Shown: positions 18,788-31,091 of the stretch, one piece after another | Numbering within the stretch: position 1 is the first letter of the stretch | How the letters are laid out: each line of letters opens with the position of its first letter | Program-made: the position numbers and the translations under genes | NCBI RefSeq assembly: GCF_019931145.1 | Contig: NZ_JAIOUV010000002.1 | Coordinates: forward strand, 434,001-498,000 | Reading direction: 5' to 3' | DNA: 64,000 bases | Origin: Marinicella meishanensis | Lineage (GTDB): Bacteria > Pseudomonadota > Gammaproteobacteria > Xanthomonadales > Marinicellaceae | The notes under the pieces: model-generated | Databases searched by the model: none | Told to the model about the DNA's origin: nothing | Seen by the model: only the letters and a program-made list of their open reading frames with translations

Positions 18788-19681
18788 ATGAGCCAAATCC
18801 TCACCCCCAAAGCCGTTGCATTCGAAAGCCGCTACGGCACCATCCGTGGCCTGCAATGGGGACACGGCAACCGCCATCCGGTGTTGGCCTTGCATGGCTG
18901 GCTGGACAATGCCGCCAGCTTTTGGCACCTGGCCCCGTTGTTGGCAGCCCATGATCTGGAGCTCACCGCGATTGATTTTCCTGGACACGGCCATTCCGAT
19001 CACCGGGCCCCGGGACACAATTATGGCTTCATTGATTATGTGATGGATGTGCAGGCGGTGCTGGACCAATTGCCCCGCCCCATCACCTTGCTGTGCCACT
19101 CCATGGGCGCAGCAATCGCGGTGATGTATGCCGCAGCCTTCCCGGAACACATCAAACAAATGGTGTTGCTGGAGAACTTGGGGCCAGTGCCCCCACACCA
19201 ACCCGGCAAAGCCGCTGAATCACTGCGTGAAGCCCTCAAATTATGGCGCCGCCACAGCTTGGAACACAAACGCCATTATACCGATGTCGAACAAGCCATC
19301 CAAGCCCGCCAGGAAGCCACCCCGATGGCCACCGAAATCATTCGACCGCTGGTGGAACGGGGCTTGCAATCTGGCCAACAAGGGCTGCATTGGCGCACCG
19401 ACAAGCGCTTGCGGTTGCGCAGCTTTTTCCGCATGAGTGAGGCCCAAATTCAAGAATTCCTGGGGGCCACAACGGTGCCCACCCAGTTGCTCATCGCCGA
19501 ACCCCGTTCATATGCCTTGCAATACCCCATGTTCGAAGCACGGCTCAAAGCCCTGAACCCCGAGCGCTTTGACCAGTTGCCAGGCGATCACCACCTGCAC
19601 ATGGGTCAAGCCAAGGCCGTGGCGGCGGCGATTCTGGACTTCCTCAACCTGGATACAGTGCCCGCCGATGATGCCCGCTGA
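18788..19681 (+). CDS. alpha/beta hydrolase (serine hydrolase-like)
   Basis: A 297-residue cytosolic alpha/beta hydrolase. LALHGWLDNAASFWHLAPLL, AIDFPGHGHSDH and the nucleophile motif CHSMGAAIA (Ser near residue 104) are typical; a His near the C-terminus in GDHHLHM would complete the triad. It resembles the SERHL-type subgroup. The ATG at 18788 is chosen; the upstream TTG lies in uppP. Its stop overlaps the start of the next gene by 11 bases, so both are probably translated from one message. Substrate unknown. Confidence 0.85.
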   Translation: MSQILTPKAVAFESRYGTIRGLQWGHGNRHPVLALHGWLDNAASFWHLAPLLAAHDLELTAIDFPGHGHSDHRAPGHNYGFIDYVMDVQAVLDQLPRPITLLCHSMGAAIAVMYAAAFPEHIKQMVLLENLGPVPPHQPGKAAESLREALKLWRRHSLEHKRHYTDVEQAIQARQEATPMATEIIRPLVERGLQSGQQGLHWRTDKRLRLRSFFRMSEAQIQEFLGATTVPTQLLIAEPRSYALQYPMFEARLKALNPERFDQLPGDHHLHMGQAKAVAAAILDFLNLDTVPADDAR

Positions 19682-20825
19682 TTTTCCCGAGCTGCTGGAT
19701 CAACACATGCGGCGCATTCGCGCCAGCGCTTCGGCCGTGGCCACGGAAATTGGCATGAGTCGCGAAGCGGTCAACAACTGGCGCCGGGGTCATTCCAAAC
19801 CCAGCAAGAAGCACCGCGATAAGGTGGTGGCCTGTTCGCATTATCTGCGCTTGAGTGAAGCCGAATGCAATCAGTTGTTGGCAGCCGTGGGCTTTGACCA
19901 TGAATTCGCCTGGCATGGCCAGGTGGCTCCGGTGGAACATGAACACCTGTTTCAACTGTTGGAACAAGCCAGGCCGTATGCCATCTTGATGCTGTTGTCG
20001 CAAGCCCATATGGACCAGCCACCCCAACAACAATTGGTGATCAACGCCACCCGGCAACGACACCCGGACCGCCACCTGTTGGCGGTGCAATTGCCCTACT
20101 CCAAACGCATATCGGTCACCGACTTTTTCACCTTCTTGGGCAAACAAATGAACCTGCCTGGGGTGCAGGACGAACTCAGTTTCGAGTTTGCCATGAATGA
20201 TTTGTTACAAGCCCAAGCGGTCACCCTGGTCATCACCCGCTTTGAACAAAGCAACGACAGCTGCCGCGACCTGTTGGCTGGCATCCTGCGCAACTTGACG
20301 GAAATGCACCCAGATCGGATGCAAGTGATTTTGTGTGGTGGGGCGCAGTTGTCCGCATTGAAGTATGCCCAAGGTGAGTTGTCATTATTGAACATCGCCA
20401 CCGCCCATTTGTTGGAGTTCAAGTTGGACGCCTGGCTGCAGTCGCAGACTGAGGACCCATCATCTACCAGCCAGTCAGCATCCCGGCTGCAACGCATCCA
20501 CCAGTTGGTGGGCAACCACCCGGCCCTGGCTTCCACCTTGTTGCAAGCAAACAACGATGAGGTCGCCATGGAAGCCAGGGTGATCCACAGCGACTTGCTG
20601 TACTGTGATTTCAATCAAGTGATGCAACAGGCCCATTTGAGCCGCTTGCAAGAACACCTGAACCAGACCCAACTGGGGCCTTACCGCCCACACATCCAGG
20701 ACCCGGTGTTGCGCCAGCTGTTCTGGCTGAACCTGATCAGAAAAGACGCCGATTTACAATTGGTTTGGCAATCCGAAACGATCCGCCAATTGGGCCTCAA
20801 ACTGTTGGCTGAGCACGGCCTTTGA
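19671..20825 (+). CDS. XRE-type HTH protein with a degenerate STAND-like ATPase domain
   Basis: A 384-residue cytosolic protein. The start at 19671 (MPADFPELLDQHM) overlaps the preceding gene. Residues about 15-45 are an XRE-like HTH (ASAVATEIGMSREAVNNWRRG), followed by LRLSEAECNQLLAAVGF, a linker common in HTH-ATPase regulators. The rest has the layout of an AAA/STAND fold: a Walker B-like strand AVTLVITRFEQS, a sensor-like strand QVILCGGAQLS, and a later NHPALASTLLQ segment. No Walker A (GxxxxGK[ST]) is present where it should be, just before RHPDRHLLAVQLPY, so nucleotide hydrolysis is unlikely. The next gene starts inside its stop (TTGA overlap). A DNA-binding adaptor for the partner ATPase is an inference. 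Confidence 0.7.
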   Translation: MPADFPELLDQHMRRIRASASAVATEIGMSREAVNNWRRGHSKPSKKHRDKVVACSHYLRLSEAECNQLLAAVGFDHEFAWHGQVAPVEHEHLFQLLEQARPYAILMLLSQAHMDQPPQQQLVINATRQRHPDRHLLAVQLPYSKRISVTDFFTFLGKQMNLPGVQDELSFEFAMNDLLQAQAVTLVITRFEQSNDSCRDLLAGILRNLTEMHPDRMQVILCGGAQLSALKYAQGELSLLNIATAHLLEFKLDAWLQSQTEDPSSTSQSASRLQRIHQLVGNHPALASTLLQANNDEVAMEARVIHSDLLYCDFNQVMQQAHLSRLQEHLNQTQLGPYRPHIQDPVLRQLFWLNLIRKDADLQLVWQSETIRQLGLKLLAEHGL

Positions 20826-22945
20826 ATCCGGACACGTCCATCAAACGCATCGTGTTGTTCGTGGTACTCAGTGTGCTGACGCTGCCCTACATCATGCACT
20901 TTTTTGCGTCCAGTGGCCGCTTGTATTACAACCAAAGCGACATGGAAATTGAGGCCATCATGTTTGAAGTCAAGGGCTTTGCCAAACTGATCAACCAATG
21001 GCAAAACTCGAATAACCGCTGGCCCACATCATTTGCAGACATGTCAGACATGTTCAAAACTTCAGGCCATTTGTCCCTTGATCTGTCGGTTGAAAACCAA
21101 ATCACAGCCACCATCAGCGATCAGGTATTGACCGAAGCTTTGCGGGGCCACCAAGTGGTGTTCAAAAGGCACTTGGGCTGGCATTGTGATCCACTTGAAA
21201 CCACACTGCCCGAAGACTTCAAGCCGATTGAGTGTGGCGGTCAATATAATGCCTACATCACCCAAAACAACCCACCGAATGAGTCCACCTTTCAGGCGGT
21301 GGCATTCATTGCGGTGGTTGGCATCCTCATTGCTTGGGTGTTTTATCACCCATCTATCCGCCGGTTGCGAGGACGGGAGTTTTCCTTGGCCGGCCAACAC
21401 CTCAAAGACTTGCGCCATCTTGGCCTCCTGACCCAATTATCGGGATTGAAACAACAGGTGCTTCAGGCCAACGACATGCATGCCAAGACTTGGCAAACCC
21501 TGGTGCGCTTCAAGGGCCTGACAGACCGGCCCAAAGTGCTGTACTTGTGTCGTGCTTGGGGCGCCCGCCTGCAAGCCAAAGCCAGCCCTTCAACCTGGCT
21601 CTTGAAGCTGGACCCGGACACCCCACTGAACGTCGACGCCCTGTATTGGTATGTGCCACCAAAAGGCACTGCCATCACCCGCATCAATCGCCAACTGCAA
21701 CAGTTGAAAGAAACCCAGCTGCCGGTGATGATCTGGGCCGAAGATGCCGCATACAACAACCATTTACAAGTGAACAGGTCGCGCATCAAAGCGCTGAAAG
21801 TGATTCCCTCTGGTCAGCAAATGACCCAACTGCTGGTCCCCAAACTCGCCGCAACCTGCCTGTTGGATGTGTTGGTCGAAAACCTGCCCATCAACCGATT
21901 GTCCCCTTTTCAAGGCCGCGGCGGGGTGCTCAAAAACAGTCATTTCTATGGCCGCAAAACCATCCTTTCGCAGCTGCAAAACAACCCCCGGTCCTGCTTT
22001 TTGTTGGCCGGTGGACGGCAACTGGGGAAAACCAGCATCCTCAAAGCCTATGCCCGGCAGTTGGCCCAATCTGACCACCACCGATGCTGCTACATTTCCT
22101 TATCGGATGACCGTTTGGTGCCTCGCCTGGTCCACCACCTGGGCATCAATGAGCATCAGGGATTGACCGATTTGTTGACCCAGTTCAAGCAGCTCCACCC
22201 TCAGCAGCAACTGGTGGTGCTGTTGGATGAAGCCGATCGCTTCATCGCGACGCAAGCCGAACAGGGTGACGCCTTGTTGGCCGAAATCCGCACCTGTGCC
22301 GAACAAGGCCTGGGCCAGTTTGTCTTGGCCGGGTTTTGGGACTTGTATGCCAGTGCGGTGTTGGATTACCAATCTCCCATCAAAAACTTTGCCCAGCTGG
22401 TGACCGTGGGGCCTTTGGATCCGAATTCTGCCCGGGCCCTGCTGCGCCAGCCGCTGCATTTATTGAAGCAGCGCTTCGCCCATCAGGGCCTGCTGGATGA
22501 GGTGTCCATGCAGACCGGCAACCGAGCCAATTTGATCAATTTGGTGGGCGAATGCCTGGTCGACCAACTGAGCAACCACCCCCAGGTCATTGATCACCAG
22601 CTGATCCAACAAGCACTGCACAGTCAACCGGTGTATGACGCCTTACAAGGTTGGTCCAATTTGTCTCGTGATCCGCAAGCCTGTGCCATCGACCGTTGCG
22701 TGGTTTACCTGACCTTCATCCATGGCCAGATTGATTTGGCCCGGGTGTTGCAGCACCTTGAATCAGCCCAATGCACCGTGGGTCCAGAATCCCTGAAGGC
22801 GGCTTTACACCGCTTGCGACTGGCCCACATCCTCATCAAACACGATGATCATTACCGCTTTGCCGTACCCCTGTTTGCCGCCCAACACAGTGTCAGCGAA
22901 GCCGAGACTTTGTTACACCAAGAGTTGCTGCAGTTGGCCTCTTGA
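20822..22945 (+). CDS. membrane STAND-type ATPase with a type IV pilin-like periplasmic domain
   Basis: A 707-residue inner-membrane protein starting at TTG (20822), overlapping the previous stop by four bases. Membrane segment 1 (IVLFVVLSVLTLPYIMHFF) is followed by about 125 residues outside, then membrane segment 2 (FQAVAFIAVVGILIAWVFY, near 160-178). The outer part contains KGFAKLINQWQNSNNRWPTS and GWHC...LPEDFKPIEC (Cys 122 and Cys 138), which recall the helix-to-head region and disulfide loop of type IV pilin heads. The cytoplasmic part has Walker A GGRQLGKTS near 396-404 and Walker B LVVLLDEADRF near 463-473, then a helical winged-helix-like tail. It looks like a transmembrane signalling ATPase; I know of no described system with this architecture. 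Family assignment of the pilin-like part rests on pattern only. Confidence 0.75.
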   Translation: MNPDTSIKRIVLFVVLSVLTLPYIMHFFASSGRLYYNQSDMEIEAIMFEVKGFAKLINQWQNSNNRWPTSFADMSDMFKTSGHLSLDLSVENQITATISDQVLTEALRGHQVVFKRHLGWHCDPLETTLPEDFKPIECGGQYNAYITQNNPPNESTFQAVAFIAVVGILIAWVFYHPSIRRLRGREFSLAGQHLKDLRHLGLLTQLSGLKQQVLQANDMHAKTWQTLVRFKGLTDRPKVLYLCRAWGARLQAKASPSTWLLKLDPDTPLNVDALYWYVPPKGTAITRINRQLQQLKETQLPVMIWAEDAAYNNHLQVNRSRIKALKVIPSGQQMTQLLVPKLAATCLLDVLVENLPINRLSPFQGRGGVLKNSHFYGRKTILSQLQNNPRSCFLLAGGRQLGKTSILKAYARQLAQSDHHRCCYISLSDDRLVPRLVHHLGINEHQGLTDLLTQFKQLHPQQQLVVLLDEADRFIATQAEQGDALLAEIRTCAEQGLGQFVLAGFWDLYASAVLDYQSPIKNFAQLVTVGPLDPNSARALLRQPLHLLKQRFAHQGLLDEVSMQTGNRANLINLVGECLVDQLSNHPQVIDHQLIQQALHSQPVYDALQGWSNLSRDPQACAIDRCVVYLTFIHGQIDLARVLQHLESAQCTVGPESLKAALHRLRLAHILIKHDDHYRFAVPLFAAQHSVSEAETLLHQELLQLAS

Positions 22946-24125: not shown

Positions 24126-24173
24126 AAGGATTGATCCAGGTGCGGCCCACGGGGTCCACCTGGATTCCTTTTT
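24126..24173. terminator. intrinsic terminator between convergent genes
   Basis: ATCCAGGTG (24134-24142) pairs with CACCTGGAT (24156-24164); the flanking AAGGA and TCCTT extend the stem across a small bulge. A T-run follows on the plus strand. Confidence 0.75.
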
Positions 24174-25668
24174 AAGAGTTGCTTTGGCTTTTGGTGACCC
24201 AAATTTCGGTGCGGTTGTTGCGATAACGGCCCCATTCGCTGTCATTGCTGTCGATCGGCAAAGCATTACCCAAGGCAATGATTTCAACATTTTTGATGCC
24301 GCGTTGTTTGAGTTCAAATGCCAACAACTTGCTGCGGATAAAAGCCCGATTCTTATCGGCATCCTCGTCTTGTGATTCACCGGCCGAGAAGCCGATGAGG
24401 GTGACTTTTTGGTGCGGTGTTTGCTGCAAATAGTTGACCAAGTGCTCAATGTCCTGGGCCGACTTGTTGTCAATTTCGGCGCGATCTGAGCGCATTCGAA
24501 AAGTCACCGACAGGCGTTCGCCATGCAAGGCCACCCGCTGGTAAGGCACCGGAAAATCTGCGTTTACCACGGGCAAGGAAGCGGTCACTTTTTGTGGGAT
24601 GAAACTGACCTGTTCCACCAAATGCTGACCATTGATCGATAAGGCAAAGTCAATCAAACCAGACACATGCGGGTTGCTGGATCGTTCGGTGTTGGCATAC
24701 AAAAACAGGCGACGACTCAAGGCATAGTCTTCCGAACTGATGGAAAATTGTTTCGGCTCAATGGCGGCGATGCCATCATCGGCTGAGATTTTCAGGATCA
24801 TGTCGGTACGGGCATAAGCCAAGCCAGTGAAACCAATGCCCCAGGCATCCGCTGCCACCGAGCGGGCCAACTGTTCATTGGACTCAAACCGCTTGGCTGG
24901 GGCCAGCTGTTTGCCCGATTTTTTCAGTACCAAGGAATTGAAGGTGTCATATGTCCCTGATTGATCATCTCGGGCATACAACTTGATCGCGCGGTCTGCA
25001 CCACCCAACTGTGACCAGTGGGTGATTTCACCGGCAAATATTTGGGCCAGTTGCGCCACGGTGAGGTGGCGCAAGGGGTTGTCAGGATGGACGATGATGG
25101 CCAAGCCATCCAAAGCAATGACGTGCTCACTTTCGGGACGGGTCATGTCCCCATGGGGGATCAATAATTGCAAGTTTTCGGACTCTTTGATCGGCCGAGA
25201 TGACATCGCAATGTCGGTCTCTTGCTGCAGCATTGAGCGAAACCCTGTGCTTGATCCGTGGGCCTTGATGGCAATGGCCACCACCTGGTTGGTGGCTGGC
25301 AGAAAACCGATCACCTGCACTTCGTTGGCAGTCGGCAACGGCTTGTTGATGGTGACATCGGCCCCCAACTGCTTCAAATAGGCCGCCGCCACGGCAGGCG
25401 CCAACTTGTCACCAATGGTGTTGGATCCATCCATGCGCAAAATCACCTCAGCGGGCGCTGACAACAAATCAGGGGGTGGTGAAAAAGCACCAGTGGCAGG
25501 CTGCATTGACGCCGATGCCGGGGCCTCAACGGCTGCCGCAACGGCCGTCTCAGATTCAACCGGGCTGTGTTCAGCGCCGAATTTTTGATAGAAAATCACC
25601 GCCCCGGCCAAGCTGGACAAAACGATCAGTATTTCAAAGAGGTACCGCTTGATTGAATACATGGGCAT
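24172..25668 (-). CDS. PstS-like phosphate-binding domain fused to an OmpA domain
   Basis: A 498-residue protein anchored by one N-terminal membrane segment (IKRYLFEILIVLSSLAGAVIFY) after a short basic start. A low-complexity Ala/Pro linker leads to a periplasmic-binding domain of the PstS type (MDGSNTIGDKLAPAVAAAYL, SSRPIKESE, LAIIVHPDNPLRHLTVAQLAQIFAGEITHWSQLGG, DDQSGTYDTFNSLVL). From about residue 370 an OmpA-like domain (LVNYLQQTPHQKVTLIGFSAGES and NRAFIRSKLLAFELKQRGI) should bind peptidoglycan. No Pst ABC transporter genes are adjacent, so a sensory or wall-associated role may be more likely than transport. The start could be 25668 or 25662. Confidence 0.85.
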   Translation of the reverse strand: MPMYSIKRYLFEILIVLSSLAGAVIFYQKFGAEHSPVESETAVAAAVEAPASASMQPATGAFSPPPDLLSAPAEVILRMDGSNTIGDKLAPAVAAAYLKQLGADVTINKPLPTANEVQVIGFLPATNQVVAIAIKAHGSSTGFRSMLQQETDIAMSSRPIKESENLQLLIPHGDMTRPESEHVIALDGLAIIVHPDNPLRHLTVAQLAQIFAGEITHWSQLGGADRAIKLYARDDQSGTYDTFNSLVLKKSGKQLAPAKRFESNEQLARSVAADAWGIGFTGLAYARTDMILKISADDGIAAIEPKQFSISSEDYALSRRLFLYANTERSSNPHVSGLIDFALSINGQHLVEQVSFIPQKVTASLPVVNADFPVPYQRVALHGERLSVTFRMRSDRAEIDNKSAQDIEHLVNYLQQTPHQKVTLIGFSAGESQDEDADKNRAFIRSKLLAFELKQRGIKNVEIIALGNALPIDSNDSEWGRYRNNRTEIWVTKSQSNS

Positions 25669-29972: not shown

Positions 29973-31091
29973 ATGAGAAATTCATTGATTTTGGTGGCAC
30001 TGCTGTGGCCACCCTTGATGCAGGCAGCCAGCTTTTGTGTCAATGACTCGGCAGAGTTGGTTGATGCCCTGAGCGAAGCCAACAACAACGGACAAGACGA
30101 CGTCATCCGCATCCGCAACGGGGATTATTTGATTGTCAACAACGAGCCCTTCCGATGGCTCAATTTGGAGCCCCACGACTTGGTCATTTCCGGCGGCTGG
30201 GAACCGTTCAATCAATTCGATTGCATGATCCAAAGTGGCACCCCTTATGACACCACTTTGGACGGCGATGACAGCGCTGCGGTGCTGTACTTACAAATCA
30301 CCGGTGGCGATGAGGCCAATTTGGTGGTGGAAAACCTGACCATCAGCAATGGCCGCACCACCGCCGTGAATGAATCGGCCGGCTTGCGGATTTTGAACCA
30401 AGGCAACCCCAATGCCAGCGAAGTACTGATCGATCAGGTGCTGTTTTTGGGCAATGACGGGGTCAATGGCGCGGGCTTGTATTACCTCGGCACCGGTCAG
30501 CTGACTGTGCGCAACAGCGTCTTCATGTTCAACAACACCGACAGCGGCGATGGGGTGGCCAATATTGCCATGTCCGCCAATGCGCCAGGGGTTTATTTCA
30601 TCAACAACACCCTGATCAACAACAGTTCCGACGACCCCAGCACCGCTGCCACCAACGTCAGTGGCTTGCTGTTGAACCTCAACTGGGACAATGGCGATAC
30701 CCCGGAGGCGCTGCTGGCCAATAATTTGTTTTGGTATCAGAGTTCGAATGACTTTTATGTCACCTTTTCGGGCGGCTTGACCCATTTGTTCCACAACAAC
30801 TATGAAAATGGCGGTGGCTTGATCGAGGCCAGTGGCCGTAACCGCTCTGTGCCACCGGCGCTGTCACCCTTTTTGTTGAACTTCACCCCGGAACCCGGCT
30901 CACCACTGATTGATGCCGGCCTGTCGATGGGTGATCCCATTCCCAATGCGTCGGCTTTCATCAACAATTGGGACCATGGTTCGGAGGATTTTGACCGCGG
31001 CATCATCACCCGCATTCACAACAACCAAGTGGACATCGGGGCGGTGGAATCCGATTGGGATGAATTGATCTTTAAAAGTGATTTCGATTGA
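29973..31091 (+). CDS. secreted beta-helix protein with C-terminal LIFKSDFD tail
   Basis: A 372-residue protein with a signal peptide (MRNSLILVALLWPPLMQAAS) and GGAGG before the ATG. The mature part has repeated short strands with Asn ladders (LVVENLTISNGRTT, LTVRNSVFMFNNT, VYFINNTLINNSS), as in right-handed beta-helix or pectate-lyase-like proteins, and ends with the typical GSPLIDAG and HNNQVDIGAVES closing segment. It then stops at WDELIFKSDFD. No catalytic residues of a lyase are evident. It is probably a cell-surface or secreted structural or polysaccharide-binding protein. Its stop abuts that of the convergent kinase gene directly. Confidence 0.75.
   Translation: MRNSLILVALLWPPLMQAASFCVNDSAELVDALSEANNNGQDDVIRIRNGDYLIVNNEPFRWLNLEPHDLVISGGWEPFNQFDCMIQSGTPYDTTLDGDDSAAVLYLQITGGDEANLVVENLTISNGRTTAVNESAGLRILNQGNPNASEVLIDQVLFLGNDGVNGAGLYYLGTGQLTVRNSVFMFNNTDSGDGVANIAMSANAPGVYFINNTLINNSSDDPSTAATNVSGLLLNLNWDNGDTPEALLANNLFWYQSSNDFYVTFSGGLTHLFHNNYENGGGLIEASGRNRSVPPALSPFLLNFTPEPGSPLIDAGLSMGDPIPNASAFINNWDHGSEDFDRGIITRIHNNQVDIGAVESDWDELIFKSDFD

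Follow-up and report, generated by a model that had tools for sequence, protein, structure and literature searches.

Can a type IV pilin head serve as the outward-facing sensor of an ATP-driven switch? This question is raised by two overlapping genes in a 64,000-nucleotide stretch of Marinicella meishanensis (contig NZ_JAIOUV010000002.1, positions 434,001 to 498,000), hereafter the window, whose coordinates are used throughout; both genes lie on the plus strand. Gene B (20822..22945; 707 amino acids, TTG start) is predicted to encode a membrane protein with a pilin head and a STAND-type ATPase, and gene A (19671..20825; 384 amino acids from the ATG at 19671) a protein with a helix-turn-helix (HTH) N-terminus and an ATPase-like domain without Walker A. 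An original prediction had described gene B as a sensor that mimics or interacts with pilins and signals through an ATPase.

Membrane topology and predicted pilin head of gene B

The frame 20822-22945 is open over 707 residues from its TTG and comprises, in order, a membrane helix, a periplasmic pilin head, a second membrane helix, a cytoplasmic linker and a STAND/AAA_22-type ATPase. Hydropathy in 19-residue windows peaks twice, in windows starting at residues 6-13 and 154-162, corresponding to a first membrane helix at residues 10-29 (20849..20908) and a second, leading back to the cytoplasm, at residues 157-175 (21290..21346), which is followed, as read by eye, by HP and a run of basic residues. 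The N-terminus probably lies inside. In a sample of 398 genomes of the order, 23 gave a homologue of gene B; P22, within the first helix, is nearly invariant among these 23 and, when the full profiles are aligned, sits close to the conserved Pro of the pilin N-terminal helix.

The predicted head spans residues 41-141 (20942..21244) and consists of a helix ending in W67-P68, four predicted strands and a Cys122-Cys138 loop. Two segments carry the likeness to pilins, KGFAKLINQWQNSNNRWPTS (residues 51-70) and GWHC...LPEDFKPIEC (residues 119-138, including both cysteines). W120 and C122, the first half of the Cys-loop signature (W120-x-C122, 21179..21187), and C138, the second loop cysteine (21233..21235), are invariant in 8/8 and 9/9 aligned homologues, which were picked by whole protein and not by motif. 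The W-x-C...C pattern was present in all 23 homologue N-termini, and the head limits in the later comparisons were set from this motif. While the rest of the head diverges heavily, the W-P turn and the Cys loop are kept, and Cys122 and Cys138 probably form a disulphide bond.

Profile comparisons place the head among pilins. As reference, 32 pilin loci were collected and 11 without a leader-bearing frame excluded, yielding 36 rows, against which the head profile scored 60.5 over 105 colinear columns (100 permuted controls, ≤15.0). Because overlapping loci had duplicated rows, the comparison was repeated with the 27 distinct genuine pilins, giving 59.9 against ≤14.5 for 100 permuted controls. 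A local pilin-head profile assigned 18.4 bits to the window domain, with the lowest native domain at 4.0 and the best of 460 shuffled domains at 3.1. At E ≤ 1, Pfam Pilin (PF00114; curated cut-off 22 bits) is listed for 8 of the 23 members, with a best E of 3.6e-6, and it reaches 27.8 bits in the G004 copy; in locus L081, one protein in one open frame carries both Pilin (23.5 bits) and nSTAND1 (31.9 bits, cut-off 27.1). These comparisons of sequence indicate that the periplasmic domain of gene B is a type IV pilin head.

Structural searches with a low-confidence model of the head favour the same assignment: the top 10 Foldseek rows are all pilins (best E 0.046), as are the top 21 VIA rows (best Z 6.1, in a range that the tool calls common). 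Of the two checks that could have refuted the original prediction, Cys conservation clearly favours it, and the fold check favours it only through a model of low confidence.

Prepilins are cleaved at G/A before F-T-L-x-E. This leader motif is visible in the genuine pilins of the reference set, and a leader-like pattern was matched by 0/23 homologue N-termini, the window protein included. Lacking this leader, gene B bears a pilin domain without being a pilin in the functional sense, and its predicted second membrane helix argues against polymerisation into a filament. Several elements of the original prediction hold up, namely two membrane segments enclosing about 125 residues, a pilin-like domain between them, the missing leader and the conserved Cys pair.

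Compared with the type IV major pilins of PF00114 (Neisseria PilE, 2hi2; Pseudomonas PAK, 1dzo, and PAO1, 8tum), gene B shares the C-terminal part of helix 1, the W-P turn, the four predicted strands and the W-x-C...P..C loop. Unlike them, it lacks a prepilin leader, has a stretch between the membrane Pro and the head that is longer by about 10 residues, and continues beyond the head into a second membrane helix and a cytoplasmic ATPase.

The cytoplasmic linker and ATPase

The linker domain (residues 176-370; 21347..21931) contains helices and strands in model m28e6c8bf8476, whose predicted local distance difference test (pLDDT) values per ten residues are 64-91 up to model residue 180 and 45-54 at 181-200. 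It leads into the ATPase with its C-terminal helical region (residues 371-707; 21932..22942), which matches Pfam AAA_22 at 36.4 bits (cut-off 27). Walker A, GGRQLGKTS (residues 397-405; 22010..22036), and Walker B, VVLLDEADRF (residues 465-474; 22214..22243), are intact, as had been predicted. Among 24 A/B pairs, Walker A was found in every one and Walker B in 23 by pattern, the remaining locus (L082) reading VMIDEADPF.

The nSTAND1 profile exceeds its cut-off in L081 and L016 and lies just under it in L089 (26.4 bits); for the window copy it is not listed by Pfam at E ≤ 1. A model of residues 175-707 (mean pLDDT 77, predicted template modelling score 0.60) has the archaeal ATPases 2qen and 2fna as best Foldseek matches, with E 2e-7 and a template modelling score of only 0.34-0.37 over the query. 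Profile and motifs together identify gene B as a STAND-type ATPase.

With the STAND NTPases (nSTAND1, AAA_22; 2qen, 2fna) gene B shares the Walker motifs and the ATPase profile, two relatives passing the nSTAND1 cut-off. It departs from them in spanning the membrane with an outer sensor and in leaving the output to a second, coupled protein. For characterised antiviral STANDs, PMC10907252 describes an N-terminal effector and a C-terminal sensor.

Gene A is the coupled partner of gene B

The start of gene B overlaps the stop of gene A by 4 bp, as TTGA, and this overlap is kept in 20/24 pairs; such coupled translation suggests that the two proteins are stoichiometric partners. A and B are also the only frame clusters common to all 16 neighbourhoods compared.

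The predicted HTH core of gene A occupies residues 19-47 (19725..19811; HTH_3, E 0.0039), and its motif recurs in 26/26 pilin-type loci, of which 23 come from genomes of the order, two from genomes beyond it (G940, G891) and one from a viral contig. Relatives of gene A match HTH_31 at 23.0 bits (L173) and 17.6 bits, the cut-off being 27. A Walker A-like pattern occurs in 1/25 A frames, which include untrimmed upstream letters. As judged by eye, the first 11 bp of gene A are shared with the end of an alpha/beta-hydrolase-like gene. Directly upstream of A, 7 of the 16 neighbourhoods carry a membrane protein of about 240 residues (L079 4642-5385 and six others), which does not occur in the window.

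Relatives with exchanged input and output domains

Five genome contigs outside the pilin group carry the same ATPase. The outer part of B was scanned in four of them (L015-L018, L019 falling outside the scan), revealing WD40 arrays in L015, L017 and L018 and one repeat in the given frame of L016; in L018 the array and the ATPase are split between two overlapping frames. In the three A genes scanned (L015, L016, L018), TIR_2 is present at E 8e-23 to 5e-29. The rest of A forms a domain common to the HTH and TIR types (16 HTH-type and 3 TIR-type rows; HH probability 100, E 1.5e-54). These TIR plus WD40/STAND modules come from Chromatiaceae, Lamprocystis and Planctomycetaceae, respectively, that is, from purple sulphur bacteria and a planctomycete.

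The WD40/TIR pairs are thus homologous to the window module in the ATPase and linker of B and in the core of A. They differ in having WD40 repeats where the window has a pilin head, and TIR where it has an HTH. This combination implies that input and output domains have been exchanged around a shared A/B core. The original prediction had missed both the HTH partner and these relatives, which together point to a two-gene signalling module.

In a tree of 34 ATPase domains, a branch supported at 98/97 separates the 26 pilin-type rows from the WD40 types; the root serves display only, and two of the rows, L009 and L039, have their head on a different contig. This topology is consistent with a single sensor swap, the pilin type forming one clade.

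Distribution and genomic site

Within the genus, gene B was found in 5/18 genomes, and in 0/15 genomes from other genera of the family. Wider searches recovered it in 3/369 genomes of the class (the window's own, G043 and the WD40-type G678) and 8/398 of the phylum, with a partial match of 82 bits in G1125.

The alpha/beta-hydrolase-like gene occurs in 18/18 genus genomes and marks a recurrent site. Gene A follows it in G000, G004, G009 and G017; in G016, A-B is located elsewhere. G007 has an empty site, in which the hydrolase gene is directly followed by the counterpart of the window gene at 24172. This account of the site covers six of the 18 genus genomes. This arrangement suggests that A-B has been gained and lost at a fixed site.

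Three viral contigs (L088, L089, L090) carry A-B, L089 having B alone, beside genes of what we take to be an inovirus-like phage; gene B is interrupted in L090. In these contigs, and in L173 (9326), some 70-85 bp separate the end of B from what is presumably a dif-like site, phage and dif both being assigned by eye, and in the three contigs inovirus-like prophages occupy this site. The site was recognised in the sequence, three earlier pattern scans for dif having come back blank. In G940, a dif-like site follows B without a phage. We considered and rejected A-B as phage cargo: the dif-like core separates B from the phage and the G940 site is phage-free, so that A-B represents chromosomal flank and its position is no evidence for defence. 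A search of 50,697 phage records gave no match to the window protein, and one of 72,556 plasmid records gave two weak matches confined to the ATPase.

What the module may sense

We propose that A and B work together as a two-protein switch across the membrane that reads the state of pili or pilins, or a pilin-binding agent, with transcription as its output; this is our leading and still tentative interpretation, with prospects a little short of even. Since prepilin peptidase would be unable to cut B, and a second helix anchors the protein, B would stay in the inner membrane and out of the filament. Its periplasmic head, near the pilin pool and the pilus base, may bind pilins, pilus machinery or a pilin-binding agent. 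A change in binding would cross the membrane to the ATPase, which would exchange or hydrolyse ATP and alter its assembly with A, and A would alter transcription via its HTH. The state of the type IV pilus or of the pilin pool is our first choice of signal.

A broader evolutionary reading, possible but more doubtful, is that a membrane STAND ATPase acquired a pilin on a single occasion, yielding a non-polymerising pilin, fixed in the inner membrane as an innate sensor, that watches pilins, retraction or pilus-riding phages and alters gene expression by way of the coupled HTH partner. The module would then be a platform with a swappable sensor (pilin or WD40) and a swappable output (HTH or TIR).

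The head diverges faster than both linker and ATPase in 176/176 pairs, with mean identities of 34% for the head and 62% for the ATPase (in one example 44% versus 82%); these pairs have at least 55% ATPase identity and are not independent. Such fast divergence fits a putative receptor domain. In G017, G009 and G036, genes with a pilin domain occur at a distance of a few kb from A-B, which is suggestive at most. Proteins with a membrane helix, a coiled coil and a pilin head were seen about 3 kb from A-B in G017 (L073 3640-4446) and 1.5 kb from it in G009 (L074 5274-6032).

Several observations weigh against the proposed switch or its tie to pili. Fast divergence of the head equally fits plain loss of constraint. 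A pilin gene is present in 23/23 carriers of A-B versus 47/52 non-carriers, so co-occurrence is uninformative. Comparison of each head with its host's own pilin gave a null result (12 genomes, mean rank fraction 0.61); 14 of the 23 carriers were tried, G017 and G290 yielding no leader-bearing pilin for the comparison, and the test is rough and weak at such similarity. No pilus operon was seen beside A-B in the neighbourhoods inspected by eye. Pfam Pilin is not reported for the window copy at E ≤ 1, so the pilin match of the window sequence itself is visible only through its relatives and the related-pilin profile. The HTH_3 match of gene A in the window, at 17.6 bits, is under the Pfam cut-off of 23. 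The pairing of WD40 with TIR comprises three loci, with no A detected at the WD40-type loci L176-L178 and L175 cut off. A and B are themselves only weakly similar (HH probability 3.8; score 26.8 versus 23.4 for the best of 200 permutations), which makes an ATPase/pseudo-ATPase complex a guess, and we do not claim the two as paralogues. Of the sensor that had been predicted, the membrane architecture stands, while the putative interaction with pilins, or mimicry of them, gains nothing from pilin presence or from resemblance to the host's own pilins.

Among the alternatives, the one that survives best, which we nevertheless regard as unlikely, is that the head is merely a convenient small periplasmic ligand domain whose signal (an ion, envelope stress or a small molecule) is unrelated to pili. 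The WD40 relatives imply that the outer domain is exchangeable, and pilin modules of the order are also joined to other, unrelated proteins; these, however, may equally be pilus-linked, and the preservation of the pilin signature (W-P turn, Cys loop) amid heavy divergence elsewhere in the head speaks against a generic ligand domain.

Bacterial immunity often relies on STAND ATPases and TIR effectors, as PMC10907252 also describes. Together with the TIR-type relatives, the patchy spread of A-B (with the empty site in G007), the fast-diverging head and, in one group, the nearby dif-like site presumably used by inovirus-like prophages, this could suggest that the head is a pilin-shaped lure in a defence-like system, in which pilus-binding phages, filamentous ones among them, touch the head and B with A triggers a protective response. 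We consider this rather improbable. The output here is an HTH and not a toxic enzyme, the dif neighbourhood represents chromosomal flank within a single species group, and window B has no match in the phage records. No defence-gene neighbourhood was seen when the flanks were inspected by eye, no defence-library scan being made. In PADLOC, no system fits: gene A of the window has no match, gene B only weak partial ones (best E 7.5e-4), and the pilin-type B of L036 none. Matches do arise through the exchanged domains, namely the TIR part of A in L018 and L016 and the WD40 part of B in L017 (HEAT-ARM_XIII, 1.1e-20, plus a weak PDC-S01), whereas the ATPase frames of L016 and L018 have no match at E ≤ 0.001, L015 falling outside this comparison.

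The union of a pilin head and an ATPase in one inner-membrane protein would also suit an accessory of pilus assembly or retraction, its ATPase acting on pilins instead of signalling. This is very unlikely, given that the ATPase is of STAND/AAA_22 type, that Pfam lists seven families for gene B at E ≤ 1 with no secretion or pilus ATPase among them, and that the gene is patchy among pilin-bearing genomes and constantly coupled to an HTH protein. Chance or convergent likeness to pilins is scarcely credible, since the modest Foldseek and VIA scores from a low-confidence model and the silence of Pfam on the window copy stand against the colinear 105-column profile match (with or without duplicates), the Pilin listings in 8/23 members and the uniformly pilin top structural rows.

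For the proposed two-protein switch, two known systems offer points of comparison. The inner-membrane sensor kinase PilS of P. aeruginosa reportedly has been proposed to monitor PilA pilins; PilS resembles gene B as an inner-membrane candidate pilin monitor and differs in being a histidine kinase without a pilin domain, the receptor here being itself a pilin and the output an ATPase with an HTH protein. CpaL of Caulobacter, in the excerpted text of PMC12607857, joins a pilin module to a vWA domain and is proposed to act in pilus-linked surface sensing. Like gene B, it unites a pilin module with another domain; unlike gene B, it is described there as a minor pilin that has a prepilin-peptidase site besides its vWA domain and is predicted to sit at the tip of the pilus, and that excerpt mentions neither an ATPase nor a second membrane helix. 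No title or abstract start among the literature matches listed describes a fusion of a pilin head to a STAND ATPase, and PMC7159879, PMC8195603 and PMC10907252 nowhere use the term pilin in their main texts.

Other pilin-derived proteins and neighbouring genes

The order reuses pilins in other proteins as well. Frames of 251-276 residues (L057, L058, L061, L062, L071, L052) lack a standard leader and combine a pilin-type membrane helix and a pilin head at the C-terminus with an N-terminal domain of cytoplasmic type that we take, by eye, to be GYF-like. Proteins of about 700-820 residues end in a pilin domain in L003/L004 (the window's own genome, contig C14 70452-71331), L055 and L059, and in this genome a lipoprotein-like free pilin head is encoded beside such a protein. 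A Pilin search of the same genome listed none in the window.

Elsewhere in the window, the gene at 24172-25668 appears by eye to join a phosphate-binding-like domain to an OmpA-like C-terminus. Two secreted-looking proteins, at 29973-31091 in the window and at 14120-15679 in L076, end in IFKSDFD and IFVDGFE (by eye), possibly a sorting tail.

Implications

How bacteria read the state of their pili, and whether pilus-borne phages are sensed, is in our judgement open in most of them. Should the proposed switch prove true, a building block of a surface filament would have been turned into an outward-facing sensor on an ATP-driven switch, a new type of input for a known switch family. The WD40/TIR relatives suggest a general outside-to-inside STAND platform, in which swapping the outer domain changes the input and swapping the end of the partner changes the output. 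The A-B module offers a concrete and genetically simple candidate receptor, with a pilin as its sensing part, for how cells read their own pili.

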